A stretch of 46,644 bases of DNA from Clostridia bacterium (GTDB lineage Bacteria; Bacillota; Clostridia; Clostridiales; Clostridiaceae). Under the pieces are notes generated by a model. That model was not told the origin of the DNA. It ran no database searches and worked only from the letters and a program-made list of their open reading frames with translations. Shown piece by piece: positions 833 to 35,993 of the stretch; the first letter of the stretch is position 1; every line of letters begins with the position of its first letter. The position numbers and the translations under genes are program-made. The stretch lies in contig JAAYTB010000038.1 of the NCBI GenBank assembly GCA_012523855.1, positions 1 through 46,644 of the forward strand, written 5' to 3'.

Positions 833-2362
833 TTACTTTATAAGAGATTTTCCTGTCATTTCAGCAGGTACTTCTAAATTCATTGCTTGTAGCATTGTTG
901 GAGCTATATCTGCTAAAACGCCCCCTTCTCTCATTTCCTTTGCATCTTTAGCTATATAGATGAAAGGTACTGGGCCAGTAGTATGGGCGGTCATTGCTGA
1001 ACCTGTAGAATAATCAATCATTTGCTCAGCATTTCCATGGTCTGCTGTTAAAAATACTGTTCCATCTTTCTCAAGAACCTTGTCCACAACCTTGCCAACA
1101 CATGTATCTACTGCTTCAACAGCTGCTTTTGCCGCTTCAAATACACCAGTATGGCCAACCATATCAGGATTAGCGAAGTTTAATATAATCATATCATACT
1201 GATCTGAATCTATTCTTTTAACTACTTCATCTGTTACTTCATATGCGCTCATTTCAGGTTTTAAATCGTAGGTAGCAACCTTTGGTGAATTAATAAGAGC
1301 TCTATCTTCTCCTGGATTTGGAGCTTCAACTCCTCCATTAAAGAAGAAGGTTACATGGGCATACTTTTCTGTTTCTGCAATTCTCAATTGTTTCTTTCCT
1401 AATTTGCTGACATACTCACCTAAAGTATTTGTATAGGATTGAGGCTTATAGGCTATGTGTACATTTTCCATTGTCTTATCATATTGAGTCATGCATACGA
1501 AAAATAAGTCTAAGCTTTCTCTTTCAAAACCATCAAATTCCTTATCATTGATAGCTCTAGTAATTTCTCTAGCTCTATCTGGTCTGAAATTAAAGAAGAT
1601 TACAGAATCTCCATTGTTTATAGTTGCTAGAGGCTTGCCCTCTTCTAAAATAACTGTAGGAAGAACAAATTCATCAGTTTTGTTGTCATTGTAGGACTTT
1701 TCCATAGCTTCTACAGCACTAGCTGCTGTTTCACCTTTTCCATTAACCATAGCGTCATAAGCTAGCTGTACTCTTTCCCATCTGTTATCTCTGTCCATAG
1801 CGTAATATCTTCCAGATACTGTAGCAATCTTACCGTTTGCAAGTTCCTTTAAGTAATTTTCTACATCGATTATATAATCCTTTCCGGAAGATGGTGGTGT
1901 GTCTCTTCCATCCATGAAGGCATGTAAATATACCTTGGAAAGTCCCTTATCCTTAGCTAATTTAAAAATAGCTTTTAAATGGTCAATATGGGAATGAACA
2001 CCTCCGTCAGAAACAAGTCCCATTACATGAAGGGCCCCATTATTTTCAATAGCCTTGTCTATAGCAGCATTTAAAACTTCATTTTTAAAGAAATCGCCAT
2101 CTTCTATAGCCTTTGTTATTCTTGTAAGCTCTTGATATACAATTCTACCAGCTCCAATATTTAAGTGGCCAACTTCAGAGTTACCCATTTGTCCATCTGG
2201 CAAACCAACATTGAGACCACTAGCTCCTAATTGGACATGAGGATATTGTTCAAATAACTTGTCTATATTAGGTTTGTGTGCTGCTCTAATTGCATTTCCA
2301 TCTTCTTTATCACTAATTCCAAAACCATCTAAAATCATCAACATTACAGGTTTCTTAGTCAT
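833..2362 (-). CDS. gpmI: 2,3-bisphosphoglycerate-independent phosphoglycerate mutase
   Basis: MLMILDGFGISD, GNSEVGHLNIGAGRIVYQ, HSHIDHLKAI, FLTADHGNAEQM: classic iPGM metal-binding and active-site motifs; 509 aa. Confidence 0.97.
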   Translation of the reverse strand: MTKKPVMLMILDGFGISDKEDGNAIRAAHKPNIDKLFEQYPHVQLGASGLNVGLPDGQMGNSEVGHLNIGAGRIVYQELTRITKAIEDGDFFKNEVLNAAIDKAIENNGALHVMGLVSDGGVHSHIDHLKAIFKLAKDKGLSKVYLHAFMDGRDTPPSSGKDYIIDVENYLKELANGKIATVSGRYYAMDRDNRWERVQLAYDAMVNGKGETAASAVEAMEKSYNDNKTDEFVLPTVILEEGKPLATINNGDSVIFFNFRPDRAREITRAINDKEFDGFERESLDLFFVCMTQYDKTMENVHIAYKPQSYTNTLGEYVSKLGKKQLRIAETEKYAHVTFFFNGGVEAPNPGEDRALINSPKVATYDLKPEMSAYEVTDEVVKRIDSDQYDMIILNFANPDMVGHTGVFEAAKAAVEAVDTCVGKVVDKVLEKDGTVFLTADHGNAEQMIDYSTGSAMTAHTTGPVPFIYIAKDAKEMREGGVLADIAPTMLQAMNLEVPAEMTGKSLIK

Positions 2363-2433
2363 TATTTACCTCCCATTTTAATAATAAATTTTGTAGAACA
2401 ATCTTTGTTAGAATAATTCAAGAATTACGAAAG

Positions 2434-2457
2434 AAATTCAGCTAAAAAGCTGAATTT
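2434..2457 (-). other. Hairpin in tpiA-gpmI intergenic region
   Basis: AAATTCAGCT-4 nt loop-AGCTGAATTT perfect inverted repeat. Confidence 0.7.
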
Positions 2458-2495
2458 CCCCCATAAATGGCAAGACCTTTGTCAATAGTCACAAA

Positions 2496-3242
2496 CTAAA
2501 AGTTCACAATAGCTGCAAAGTCTTCTGGAACTAAGCTAGCACCGCCAACTAAAGCTCCATCAATATCAGACATAGCCATTTGCTCCTTAATAGTTGCAGG
2601 TTTTACAGATCCACCGTACTGTATTCTGATAGCATCTGCAACTTCCTGTCCATAAAGGTTCTTTACACAGCCTCTAATGAAAGCTATAGTTTCGTTTGCC
2701 TGCTCAGAAGTAGCAGTTTTTCCAGTTCCAATTGCCCAGATTGGTTCATAAGCAATTACTAGTTCCTTAACCTGATCAGCAGTTAAGCCTCCTAAATCAA
2801 GCTTAACCTGTCTTCCTATCACTTCTTCGGTTATGTTAGTTTCTCTTTCTTCTAAAGATTCCCCAACACAAAGGATTGGAGTTAAATTATGGGCAAAGCA
2901 AGCCTTTAACTTTTTATTAACAGTTTCATCAGTTTCGTTGAAATACTGTCTTCTTTCACTGTGTCCTATGATAACATAGTCTATCTTCATTGCTTCTAAC
3001 ATTCCTGGCGCAACTTCTCCTGTGAAAGCTCCCTTTTCTTCAAAGTGAACATTCTGTGCACCAACCTTTATGTTTGTACCTTCTACAGCTTTTTTTACAG
3101 CATCTAAGCAAACAAAAGTTGGGCATACTACTACTTCGGATTTTGCATCCTTAACTAAAGGCTTTAATGCTTCTATAGTTTTCACAGCCTCTTCTACAGT
3201 ATAATGCATCTTCCAGTTTCCCGCAATAATTGGTGTTCTCAT
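2496..3242 (-). CDS. tpiA: Triosephosphate isomerase (start moved to 3242; ORF track gives 3266)
   Basis: [66 protein letters not shown] puts the SD before MRTPI. Confidence 0.97.
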
Positions 3243-3286
3243 TTTAAAATCCTCCTCTATTTCCAAATATGACTATTACTTAGGAA

Positions 3287-3314
3287 AGGGCTTAGAGCAC
3301 TTGCCCCAAGCCCT
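3287..3314 (-). other. Hairpin in pgk-tpiA intergenic region
   Basis: AGGGCTT...AAGCCCT inverted repeat. Confidence 0.6.
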
Positions 3315-3320
3315 ATCACC

Positions 3321-3387
3321 CTAATTTCAGCTTCCACTATCTAGCCTCAATTTTCCATCTTCAAATTTCTATCTTCTAACTTCTAAA
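3321..3387 (-). repeat. Degenerate 7-bp tandem repeat (consensus about GAAnnTn, minus strand) in pgk-tpiA intergenic region
   Basis: Minus strand reads GAAGTTA GAAGATA GAAATTT GAAGATG GAAAATT GAGGCTA GATAGTG GAAGCTG AAATTAG. Confidence 0.55.
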
Positions 3388-3390
3388 CAA

Positions 3391-4584
3391 CTATTTATCG
3401 TTTAGCGCAGCTATTCCTGGTAATTCTTTACCTTCTAAGAATTCAAGAGAAGCTCCACCACCAGTGGATATATGAGTCATCTTGTCACCAAAGCCAAGAT
3501 TGTTAACAGCAGCAGCACTGTCTCCTCCACCGATTACAGTAGTAGCATCGGAATCTGCCATAGCCTTAGCAACAGCAACAGTTCCAGCTGCAAAGTTTTT
3601 AAATTCTGCAACTCCCATTGGTCCGTTCCAAACTACAGTCTTAGCTTCTTTTACTGCATCAGCAAATATTTTTTCTGATTTAGGTCCAATATCAAGGGCC
3701 ATGTATCCTTCTGGAACATTTTGATCTTCAGTGATAACAGCTTCTGCGTTAGCATCAAACTTATCTGCCACTCTGTTATCAACTGGAAGTAAGAACTTAA
3801 CGCCCTTTTCTTCAGCCTTTTTAACCATTTCTAAGGAATAGTCAAGTCTATCAGCTTCTACTAAAGAATTTCCTATAGAATATCCTTGAGCCTTTAAGAA
3901 TGTGTAGGCCATTCCTCCACCAATGATTATTGTATTAACCTTATCAAGTAAGTTATTGATTACATTGATTTTATCTGAAACCTTTGCTCCACCTAATATA
4001 GCAACGAAAGGTCTTTCTGGATTGTTAACAGCCTCTCCTAGGAACTTTAATTCCTTTTGAATTAAGTAACCACATACTGCAGTGTCAACGAATTTAGTTA
4101 CACCTACTGTAGAACAGTGTGCTCTGTGAGCTGTTCCAAAAGCATCGTTAACATATACATCTGCTAAGGAAGCTAAGTCCTTTGAAAAACTATCTTCATT
4201 CTTTCCTTCTTCTGGTCTGAATCTAGTATTTTCAAGAAGAACTACATCTCCTTCTTTCATTGCTGCTACAGCTGCCTTGGCATTGTCACCAACTACAGTG
4301 TCATCAGCAGCAAAAACTACTTCCTTGTCAAGTAGTTCGGAAAGTCTCTTAGCAACTGATGCAAGAGTTAAGCTTGGGTCTGGTCCCTTAGCCTTTCCTA
4401 AGTGTGAGCAAAGAATAACCTTAGCTCCCTTTTCTATTAAATATTTTATTGTTGGAAGAGCTCCAACTAATCTATTTTCATCTGTTATAGCGCCATCCTT
4501 TAGAGGAACATTAAAGTCACATCTAACAAGTACTCTTTTACCTTTAACTTCGATGTCTTCAATAGTCTTTTTATTAAAACTCAT
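3391..4584 (-). CDS. pgk: Phosphoglycerate kinase
   Basis: [67 protein letters not shown]. Confidence 0.98.
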
Positions 4585-4732: not shown

Positions 4733-5746
<1,014 letters not shown>

Positions 5747-5822: not shown

Positions 5823-6854
5823 TTAATTTTCTTTTATTAATCTTATTATCTCTCTAGCAGCACCTTCATCAGTGATAAGTACACCCTTTTTATTATTTAT
5901 CTCCGTAGCCAGTATAGCTTCTGCTTTACTTTCTCCTCCTGCTACCGCTATAGGGTGATCAATTTTTTTAATATCACTACTATTTATTCCAACAGTGGGT
6001 GTAGAATATACTACCTTTCCACTTTTATTAAAATAACATCCAAATGCCTCGCCTACTGTTCCCATTTTTATCAGCCCATGGATCTTTTCTTGTGGCACTC
6101 CTCTACGACGAGCCATTTCATCCGCTCGTCCTATACCGTAAATGAGTACATTTGTATTCTTTATGTAGCATATAGTATCTTTTATGTCTCTCTCATTTAA
6201 CATGGCATCTAGAGCCTTATCACTAATATTATCTGGTATGTGTAAAAGTTTATAACTTCCAGAAACTTTATTTGCCAGATTACCAGCTAAAGTATTAGCC
6301 TGAGTCTCAACTTGTTTACCCATTCCACCTCTGGCGGGAACCACTAATATATTATGTAAATTTTGAAGTTTAGGCATATTGTCTATTACTTCTTTAATTG
6401 TGCTGCCACCAGTAAGAGCAATAATATCGTCATTTTTTATTATTCCTTTTATATATGTTGCAGCAGCTCTACCTAATTCCTTCATTACCGTGCTGTCTTC
6501 TTCTATACTTCCAGGAACTATAATGACATCTTTGATATTAAGCTTTTTTCTTAATGCATCTTCAATTTCTGATATCCCCTTAATTTCATGGATAAAACCT
6601 TTTAGCTTATTAAGGACCTCTTCTCCTTCCGATGTAACAATCATACCAGGAGTATTAACTTCTATTAAGTTAGCAGATTTTAAGAAACTTATTTCTGTCC
6701 TAACTATTCGTTCGCCCAAATTTAGATTGTTGGCCAGAATTCTTCTTCCTACTGGTTGATTATAATATATTGTTCTTAATATATTATATCTCTTTTCTAG
6801 CAATTCAATGAGTTCAGGCACAATCTTCTCCTGCAGTTTCAAAATTTCTTTCAA
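5823..6854 (-). CDS. cggR: SorC-family central glycolytic gene regulator CggR (start revised to TTG at 6854)
   Basis: SorC-type sugar-binding fold (GSIEEDSTVMKELGRAAATYI, ALTGGSTIKEVIDNM, GRADEMARRRG), N-terminal HTH, position upstream of gap. AGAGGTG-TTGTCT-TTG gives an SD-spaced start; the ORF-track GTG at 6875 lies next to operator DNA and lacks an SD. Confidence 0.9.
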   Translation of the reverse strand: MKEILKLQEKIVPELIELLEKRYNILRTIYYNQPVGRRILANNLNLGERIVRTEISFLKSANLIEVNTPGMIVTSEGEEVLNKLKGFIHEIKGISEIEDALRKKLNIKDVIIVPGSIEEDSTVMKELGRAAATYIKGIIKNDDIIALTGGSTIKEVIDNMPKLQNLHNILVVPARGGMGKQVETQANTLAGNLANKVSGSYKLLHIPDNISDKALDAMLNERDIKDTICYIKNTNVLIYGIGRADEMARRRGVPQEKIHGLIKMGTVGEAFGCYFNKSGKVVYSTPTVGINSSDIKKIDHPIAVAGGESKAEAILATEINNKKGVLITDEGAAREIIRLIKEN

Positions 6855-6879
6855 AGACAACACCTCTTTGGCCACTTAA

Positions 6880-6905
6880 CGTCCCAGTGTACTTTTTTTC
6901 GTCCC
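6880..6905 (-). promoter_or_regulatory. CggR operator: tandem GGGACG repeats, 20-bp period
   Basis: Minus strand GGGACGAAAAAAAGTACACTGGGACG; lies just downstream of a -10 TATAAT; matches the period of the known Bacillus CggR operator as I recall it (CGGGACN6TGTCN4CGGGAC). Confidence 0.8.
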
Positions 6906-6912
6906 ACTATCT

Positions 6913-6941
6913 ATTATAAAGTACTTCTACTAATTTTTAAA
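6913..6941 (-). promoter_or_regulatory. cggR promoter, -35 TTTAAA / 17 bp / -10 TATAAT
   Basis: TTTAAA (6936-6941), 17-bp spacer, TATAAT (6913-6918) on minus strand. Confidence 0.6.
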
Positions 6942-10564: not shown

Positions 10565-12767
10565 CTAAAACCATTTTTTTAAATAATATTTAAATTTATT
10601 CTCTTTTTTCTTTAAATATTCTTCAAAGTTATAGTAGATAGTATTTTTTTCAAAGCCCTTCTTCTTTACACCGCCATAGAATTCATCATAAACCTCTTCA
10701 GTCAAGGGTAATAAAATTTCTTTCAATTGTCCATCTTGACTTTCAGCAAACTCTCTTTCCGTTACAGATGGATCCTTCTTAATTTTATACCTTTTTAATC
10801 TTTTTAAAATATAGCTGTATAAAGGAATTAAGCTTTCGCTATTTAGGATTTTTCTTTTTCTTCTCGCTGCAAGTGTTATCCATATTAATATAGCCATTAA
10901 GACTATAGCTGTAAGGGCAATATATAAATGCTTTGAACTTAGCTTTAATTTAATAGGATTGTTTTTTTCTTCTTTATTATTGTTACCCTTGCTAGTACTT
11001 GGACTTTCCTTCTCTTCTTTTTTTTTCTTCCTTAGGTTCTGCTGAAGGTTTTTCCTCTTCCTCTTTCTTTTCTTCCTCTAAACGTAAGTTTTCTTCAAAG
11101 GCTGTAGGGGCACAATCACTTATAGCCCATATATTGTCTCTTACGAGATACTCTACCCAGGCATGGGCAGTATCGTTGGTAACATTATATAAGCCTTCCT
11201 TCATTGATGCATCATTCATCTTATAACCTTCTACGTACCTTGCAGGTATACCTGCTATTCTATACATAACTGTTAAGGCAGTGGCAAAATGAACGCAATA
11301 GCCCTTTGGATCTTCAAATAAGAAATAGTCAACAAAGTCCTTCCCTTCTGGCAGTACTGATGCATCTAAGGTGTATGTGTAGTTATCAGATAAATAGTCT
11401 CTTATTATCTCAACTTTTTCCCCAGTAGTAGTAGCATCCTTGACCAAGTCATATACTAAATCTACTGTTCTTTCAGTAACTCCTGGAGGTAGTTGCAAGT
11501 ACTTATTATAGTTTTCATTCTGTAAATGATATACCCCGTAAGAGTCCTCACCTTGATCTGAATAGTCCACATCATAGAATTCTACAGTATATTCTTTCTC
11601 AATGATAGATTTCCACATAAATATGGCCCTATCTTCACCAACAATTATGTCTTCCTCATAATTGTTAATATTATTTGTATACATAGGTACCATGAAAGAG
11701 CTGGTTTTTAAGCTTACTGGATAAATTGTTATCTCCTTTAGGCTACTAGCAGGAAAAAGATCCACTGTAGCATAGTTTCTCCAAACTCTTTCTGCTTCAG
11801 GGCTAATGCCTGATTTAAAGCTTTTTAAGTCTTCAACTGTGTTTCTCCAGGAGTAACCAGTATACTGATCCTTAACGGACCCTTTCAAATAGTAGCTCTT
11901 ATCGCTCCTTACCTTAAAGGCTAAAGCGTTATTTAATTTGATAGGCCCCCCTAACATTTTTTCCGTATTTGAATAGCCTGTTTGACTTAGATGAAAAGCT
12001 TCTTTAGTAGCAAGTTCTATAGTAGTTTTCCCAAAGGATTTTTTTCCCTTGCCATTTAAACTTTCAAATATAGATAACTTATCTTTTCCTTCAAAATCTT
12101 GAGGTAAAGGTAAGGATATAAGTCCAGCAATAATACTAAATATTAATATATTTGCAAAGATTTTTCTGCCACTAATAGAAGCGTATATTCCCTTCTTGTG
12201 AAATTGCATCATGGTCTTTTTGTAATTGTTAAGCATATAAGTCATTACGGAAATAATAGCAAAAGGTAGCAAGAGCCTTACTACTCCCTCTTCATACTCC
12301 AAGTACCAAAAGAAGGCCATTTCTAATAGAGATAAGAAAAGGATTCCCTCAGTAATTTTACTATTATAGAGGGTGAATAAAATTATCAAAATTAGAGGTA
12401 AGGCAAGGGTTATTATAGGTTTATACTGATAAAAGTAGGTAAGCTCTCCATTATATAGCTGACTATTAATACTTGTAATGTTTAAAACTATTTCTTCATA
12501 AAAAAAGTCTAGTATGGAATCTTTAAAAATAAAGCTAAAAAAAACTAAGGTTGCCAATGCTATCAATAAAAAGACAAATTTCTTAAAGCCAGTGTTTAGA
12601 ACTCCAGTGTAAAATAGGTAAAATATAATAAACAGTAAATATATCAAGGTTATATATAAATAATTAAAATCTTCTATTTGATAGCAAATAGCCATAAGTG
12701 CAAACATAAAAATTATATTTATATAGTGTACAAATACACCAACTATATGTTGTCTAAACCACTCCAT
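10565..12767 (-). pseudogene. TgpA-type transglutaminase-like membrane protein, split by a frameshift at an A9 run (11018-11026); parts = 10992..12767 and 10565..10897
   Basis: N-terminal TM helices and transglutaminase core (DPKGYCVHFATALTVMYRIAGIPARYVEGY, TAHAWVEYLV). With one fewer A the frame stays open through KEEKKEEKESPSTSKGNNNKEEKNNPIKLKLSSKHLYIALTAIVLMAILIWITLAARRKRK into the downstream ORF, whose only ATG lies inside that TM helix without an SD. Labelled pseudogene only because the frame is broken; it may be functional. Confidence 0.8.
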
Positions 12768-34958: not shown

Positions 34959-34987
34959 TAGAAAAATAAATCTCTATGCCTTATAAT
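34959..34987 (+). promoter_or_regulatory. Putative fba promoter
   Basis: TAGAAA-17 bp-TATAAT (34982-34987), just upstream of the GTCCC tandem element. Confidence 0.5.
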
Positions 34988-35003
34988 GAAATTGTACATA
35001 ACA

Positions 35004-35028
35004 GTCCCAGTGGGTCTTTTTATGTCCC
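35004..35028 (+). promoter_or_regulatory. Putative CggR operator upstream of fba: tandem GTCCC, 20-bp period
   Basis: GTCCCAGTGGGTCTTTTTATGTCCC; 19/25 identical to GTCCCAGTGTACTTTTTTTCGTCCC at 6881-6905. Confidence 0.75.
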
Positions 35029-35063
35029 AAAACCGGTATTTATTTAAGAAAGGTGGAGTAAAA

Positions 35064-35993
35064 ATGGCATTAGTTACGACTAAAGAAATGTTTAAAAAAG
35101 CCTATGAAGGCGGCTATGCTATCGGAGCATTCAATATCAATAATATGGAGATACTTCAAGGTGTTGTTAATGGAGCAAAGGCTAAGAATTCTGCTGTAAT
35201 TCTTCAATGTTCAACAGGCGCTTTAAAATATGCAGGTCCTAAATATCTAAAAGCTATGGTAGATGCTGCTATAGAAGAAACTGGAATGGATGTTGCTTTA
35301 CATTTAGACCACGGTCCAGACCTTGATGCTGTTAAACTAGCTATAGATGCAGGCTTTACTTCCGTTATGTTTGACGGATCACATTTTGAATATGAGGAAA
35401 ATGTAAGAAAGACTAAGGAAGTTGTTGAATACGCTCATGCAAGAGGAGTTGTTGTAGAAGCTGAACTTGGAGTTCTTGCTGGAGTAGAAGACGATGTAAA
35501 GAGCGACCACCATGTATTTACAGATCCAGACCAAGCTGTAGATTTTGTTAACAGAACTGGTGTTGATTCCTTAGCTATAGCTATAGGAACAAGCCACGGA
35601 GCTTTCAAATTTGCTGGCGAAGCTAAATTAAGATTTGATATACTTGAAGATATACAAGCTAAGTTACCAGGTTTCCCAATAGTACTTCATGGTGCATCAG
35701 CAGTTGATCAAGAAGCTGTAGAAACTTGCAACAAGTACGGTGGAAATATTGCTGGAGCTAAAGGTATTCCAGTTGACATGTTAAGAAAAGCTTCCTCTAT
35801 GGCAGTTTGCAAAATCAACATGGATACAGACCTTAGACTATCTATGACAGCTGCAATAAGAAAAGTATTTGGAGAAACTCCTCAAGAGTTCGACCCAAGA
35901 AAGTACTTAGGAGCTGGAAGAGAAGCTATTCAAAAGGTTGTTGAAGACAAAATTGAAAATGTACTTGGTTCAGTTGACTCAATGAACAAATAA
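35064..35993 (+). CDS. fba: Class II fructose-1,6-bisphosphate aldolase (start moved to 35064)
   Basis: YAIGAFNINNMEILQGVVNGA, LHLDHGPDLDAVKLAIDAGFTSVMFDGSH, VVEAELGVLAGVEDDV, AIGTSHGAFKF, KINMDTDLRLSMTAAIRK; AAGAAAGGTGGAGTAAAA-ATG. Confidence 0.97.
   Translation: MALVTTKEMFKKAYEGGYAIGAFNINNMEILQGVVNGAKAKNSAVILQCSTGALKYAGPKYLKAMVDAAIEETGMDVALHLDHGPDLDAVKLAIDAGFTSVMFDGSHFEYEENVRKTKEVVEYAHARGVVVEAELGVLAGVEDDVKSDHHVFTDPDQAVDFVNRTGVDSLAIAIGTSHGAFKFAGEAKLRFDILEDIQAKLPGFPIVLHGASAVDQEAVETCNKYGGNIAGAKGIPVDMLRKASSMAVCKINMDTDLRLSMTAAIRKVFGETPQEFDPRKYLGAGREAIQKVVEDKIENVLGSVDSMNK

Follow-up and report, generated by a model that had tools for sequence, protein, structure and literature searches.

The element at positions 35004–35028, in front of the fructose-1,6-bisphosphate aldolase gene fba, is very probably an operator for the repressor CggR lying in the transcribed fba leader, and CggR probably regulates the enzymes producing as well as those consuming its own signal, fructose-1,6-bisphosphate (FBP). 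The DNA analysed, hereafter the window, is a contig of 46,644 nucleotides from a Clostridia bacterium. Two GTCCC boxes (35004–35008 and 35024–35028) form a direct repeat, GTCCC-N15-GTCCC, with a period of 20 bp. In the fba leader, a gap of 16 bp separates this core from a TATAAT box, and the SD and the ATG follow; the element thus sits at or past the promoter driving a glycolytic transcription unit, with the position and spacing given in the preliminary description. The view, also expressed there, that the ORF-track start of fba (ATG 34986) is wrong was borne out: this ATG falls within the −10 box, and alignments with fba homologues begin at the MALV start, 35064, where an ATG follows the SD AAGGTGG (35050–35056).

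A second copy of the two-box element, previously noted at the cggR promoter, was confirmed at 6881–6905, with 19 of 25 positions identical to the fba copy. The cggR gene lies ∼28 kb from fba and heads a gap-pgk-tpi-gpmI operon, of the gap-pgk-tpi-pgm type. The GTG listed as the cggR start (6875) is part of the operator sequence; following an SD, a TTG at 6860 or 6854 is the likelier start (window 6854–6875, minus strand).

Table 1. Features of the fba and cggR loci in the window, with boxes given in the direction of transcription.
Feature	Position	Strand	Details and basis
fba operator core	35004..35028	+	Box 2 GTCCC 35004–35008, box 3 GGGTC 35012–35016, box 4 GTCCC 35024–35028; sequence; GTCCC-N3-GGGAC-N7-GTCCC kept in relatives; best profile match in genome, E=1.4e-4
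fba four-box frame, 37 bp	34992..35028	+	B. subtilis 45-bp operator frame (PMC11229326) placed on the sequence
fba promoter −10 box TATAAT	34982..34987	+	Sequence; TATAAT ∼15–25 bp 5′ of the operator in relatives
fba, class II fructose-1,6-bisphosphate aldolase	35064..35993	+	TIGR01859, 354 bits vs cutoff 343; Pfam F_bP_aldolase
cggR operator	6869..6905	−	Sequence; GGGAC-N7-GTCCC-like half kept within 2 mismatches in 27/30 relatives
cggR operator boxes		−	Box 1 GGGAC 6905–6901; box 2 position AGTAC 6893–6889, degenerate; box 3 GGGAC 6885–6881; box 4 GGCCA 6873–6869
cggR operon −10 box TATAAT	6913..6918	−	Sequence; 7 bp 5′ of the operator
cggR, SorC/CggR-family repressor	5823..6860	−	Pfam CggR_N and Sugar-bind; B. 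subtilis CggR 8r3g match, E=2e-82
gap (GAPDH)	4733..5746	−	NCBIfam TIGR01534; first enzyme gene of the cggR operon
pgk (3391–4584), tpi (2496–3266), gpmI (833–2362)	833..4584	−	NCBIfam; remaining cggR operon in the window

The CggR operator of the B. subtilis cggR-gapA operon was reportedly described by Doan and Aymerich in 2003. Its sequence, TGACGGGACGTTTTTTGTCATAGCGGGACATATAATGTCCAGCAA, has the form GGGAC-N7-GTC..-N3-GGGAC-N7-GTCC, and the CggR tetramer that binds it shows two-fold symmetry overall (PMC11229326). The known layout, GGGAC-N7-GTCCC-N3-GGGAC-N7-GTCCC, therefore comprises four boxes and is pseudo-symmetric. The fba site, read in reverse complement, carries GGGAC boxes with the 20-bp period and fits this frame. 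In the direction of transcription, boxes 1, 3 and 4 are kept at cggR and boxes 2, 3 and 4 at fba, with one palindromic half at a further site, ahead of pfkA. The box 1 position of fba (34992–34996) reads TTGTA, is degenerate and is counted as absent, and its box 3, GGGTC, differs by one base from GGGAC; both points count against the operator reading. Box 4 of clostridial cggR leaders is mostly GACCA. In Thermobrachium, Caloramator, Romboutsia and C. difficile, the spacer separating boxes 1 and 3 of the cggR leader is N14, not N15, and box 4 is a full GTCCC or GACCC. One genus has an extra exact operator between cggR and gap plus that ahead of cggR (5554616 and 5555883 on the first contig of one genome, G107; also seen in a second genome, G094, contig C115).

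Once placed on the four-box frame, the fba and cggR sites no longer appear to be in opposite orientation, as had been proposed from the two-box element: in both, the better palindromic half (boxes 3–4) is promoter-distal, and the 37-bp frame begins 4 bp (fba) or 7 bp (cggR) past the −10 box. The apparent inversion arose because only two of the four boxes had been read. The roadblock argument built on orientation falls with it, since a pseudo-symmetric four-box operator implies nothing special in this respect.

The window CggR contains the CggR_N winged helix (PF21715) and the sugar-binding domain (PF04198), both past cutoff, and matches B. subtilis CggR over its full length (8r3g). R37, R38, R49 and R52, the residues of CggR that contact DNA bases (PMC11229326), are all kept in the alignment with 8r3g. 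Another SorC-family regulator might use the fba operator, as many genomes encode further SorC-type proteins with 24–33% identity. However, a homologue search of the own genome gave no second CggR match besides the window CggR, the SorC-type paralogues align only from about residue 80–100 onwards, outside the CggR_N DNA-binding domain, and a single box code is common to the fba and cggR sites; we consider a regulator other than CggR very unlikely.

Conservation was examined in two samples. Among the leaders of 80 fba relatives, the element was present within at most two mismatches in 21, with Clostridium, Caloramator, Thermobrachium and Haloimpatiens among them; the strand was constant, and a TATAAT lay ∼15–25 bp upstream. 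The control pattern matched none of these 80 leaders. The second sample drew on roughly one genome for each genus in the family and comprised 30 fba, 30 cggR and 30 pfkA loci. Exact sites were found at 14/30 fba loci (16/30 within one mismatch), in every case on one and the same strand, and at 25/30 cggR loci, and the half-operator within one mismatch at 13/30 fba and 24/30 pfkA loci, compared with approximately none in shuffled sequences. No recognisable site was detected at 13 of the 30 sampled fba loci, though nearly all these genomes have cggR, indicating that the CggR–fba link is lineage-variable. Two family genomes with a good fba and no cggR lacked the fba site, which is consistent, if a small sample. 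In one genus (three genomes), fba encodes a different class II aldolase, 40–45% identical, and is preceded by this operator in an unchanged orientation; the element therefore follows function rather than gene lineage. The absence of the element upstream of orthologous fba genes, which would have counted against the proposal, is thus not the pattern among cggR-bearing relatives, many of which conserve it.

At least one exact site occurs in 170 of 196 family genomes. The surroundings of about 70 exact sites were read: those at fba, cggR, gap and pfkA lie in leaders, and nearly all others are in coding sequence or intergenic repeats. The exception may be one site that lies ahead of an ATPase gene.

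Repeats in a 5′ leader could also act in the RNA, as an attenuator or stability element, and the fba boxes can indeed pair in two mutually exclusive ways (a GUCCC-N3-GGGAC hairpin or, alternatively, GGGAC-N7-GUCCC); terminator-like hairpins with similar palindromes occur near rplS in relatives. Across 27 fba sites, however, substitutions in box 3 disrupt pairing and none is compensated, no T-run follows the fba boxes, and the conserved boxes 1 and 3 of cggR are direct repeats, unable to pair with each other. The RNA-hairpin reading was dropped after the test on the 27 sites and appears highly improbable. The rplS hairpins (GGGACTNNNNNAGTCCC followed by T-rich sequence, four loci) mimic the CggR half-operator in scans and account for several relatives' profile matches. 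For this reason, and because the own genome at one mismatch gave 7/7 against 15/15 for the control, GGGAC-N7-GTCCC was rejected as a stand-alone marker.

Frequent random occurrences of GGGAC-N15-GGGAC, a second outcome that would have weakened the case, were not seen: the whole 2.4-Mb assembly holds two exact matches, the fba and cggR sites. The reversed control pattern matched once in the same genome, so that the bare two-box pattern is only modestly above chance; with two mismatches it gave 7 matches in the window against 7.8 expected, which is chance level. The two-box pattern was accordingly rejected as sole evidence, and significance rests on placement, conservation and profile scans. A sequence-only profile built from 50 fba, cggR and pfkA sites, all outside the own genus, was run over the own genome. 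It ranked fba first (E=1.4e-4) and the pfkA-pyk leader second (E=0.05); the next ranks (fba on the other strand, a site near ppdK and a partial cggR site; E 0.6–5) would not stand alone. With a matrix derived from fba sites alone, the window fba site scored 39 bits, and the remaining top matches were all at fba or cggR sites. Two short direct repeats arising by chance can be dismissed: the single control match apart, the element is kept in many genera at a constant position relative to the promoter, also before non-orthologous aldolases.

The third CggR-type site of the genome, GGGACTAAAAAAGACCCAAGGGGAA (contig C21, 11266–11297), lies ∼40 bp 5′ of the start of pfkA, which is followed by pyk. 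With this shorter operator, CggR probably controls the FBP-making enzyme as well. The proposed extension of the CggR regulon to fba is thus supported by conservation and profile rank, and is to be widened to pfkA. Further operator-like sequences were observed elsewhere. The ppdK leaders of five genera contain CTAACC-GGGAC-N7-GTCCC-GTTAG or a near form, and the own-genome ppdK leader has a site at 11261–11324 of contig C46; the ppdK element may be a CggR half-operator, or else the adjacent CcpN-like regulator may bind there. In several genera, GACCC-N3-GGGAC-N7 occurs upstream of an operon encoding a NifU-like and a GGGtGRT protein; at this locus in the own genome it is not clearly present.

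Aldolase splits FBP into DHAP and glyceraldehyde-3-phosphate, and FBP itself is the product of PfkA. From the sequence, we infer that CggR probably binds the fba operator as a dimer of dimers, the first dimer occupying the strong palindromic half (boxes 3–4) and the other the weaker half (box 2). At low glycolytic flux, CggR positioned just over and downstream of the start site would block fba transcription. As FBP (and DHAP) rise, CggR would be released and aldolase induced together with the lower-glycolysis operon; in B. subtilis, CggR is released by FBP and DHAP alike (PMC11229326). The feedback loop through aldolase put forward earlier is retained insofar as fba belongs to the regulon, but it is incomplete, since pfkA-pyk also has a site and the circuit is therefore not merely a negative loop. 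We propose that, with CggR over both pfkA and fba, synthesis and removal of the inducer would rise together. Tentatively, and at somewhat less than even chances, clostridial CggR may be a pathway-wide FBP/DHAP sensor over pfkA-pyk, fba and lower glycolysis, and in places ppdK and the NifU-like/GGGtGRT operon, with subsets of the four boxes setting promoter-specific strengths.

CggR is a textbook flux sensor with one described target in Bacillus. If the proposal is correct, the sensor would exert both positive and negative feedback on its own signal, and the control of glycolytic flux in clostridia that produce acids and solvents would have to be modelled and engineered differently. The differences in box subset also offer naturally varied operators for studying how SorC tetramers recognise DNA. 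This kind of system is known; the new part is the fba and pfkA targets, since in the literature searched no paper places CggR at either gene in clostridia, although RegPrecise, outside the search, may list such sites.

Among known systems, C. difficile fba is induced by glucose and activated by CcpA (PMC3510511). The likeness is that a clostridium possessing cggR induces fba on glucose, and the difference is CcpA as activator; a leader search of the C. difficile fba upstream region gave no CggR-type element. Both findings count against the proposed CggR–fba link. The Caldicellulosiruptor CggR regulon motif, GGGAC-(27)-GTCCC, is the outer box pair of the same 37-bp frame and is likewise placed in leaders (PMC8579813). 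The B. subtilis operator was described as a single target at +32 to +77, whereas fba and pfkA also carry operators here, and the window frames cover approximately the predicted start site to +35; interference with initiation or early elongation is therefore likelier than a distant roadblock. The B. subtilis cggR-gapA operator and those of the window share the four-box geometry, the location downstream of the promoter and a better half-operator that is promoter-distal, and the repressors themselves are homologous, with the contact arginines kept.
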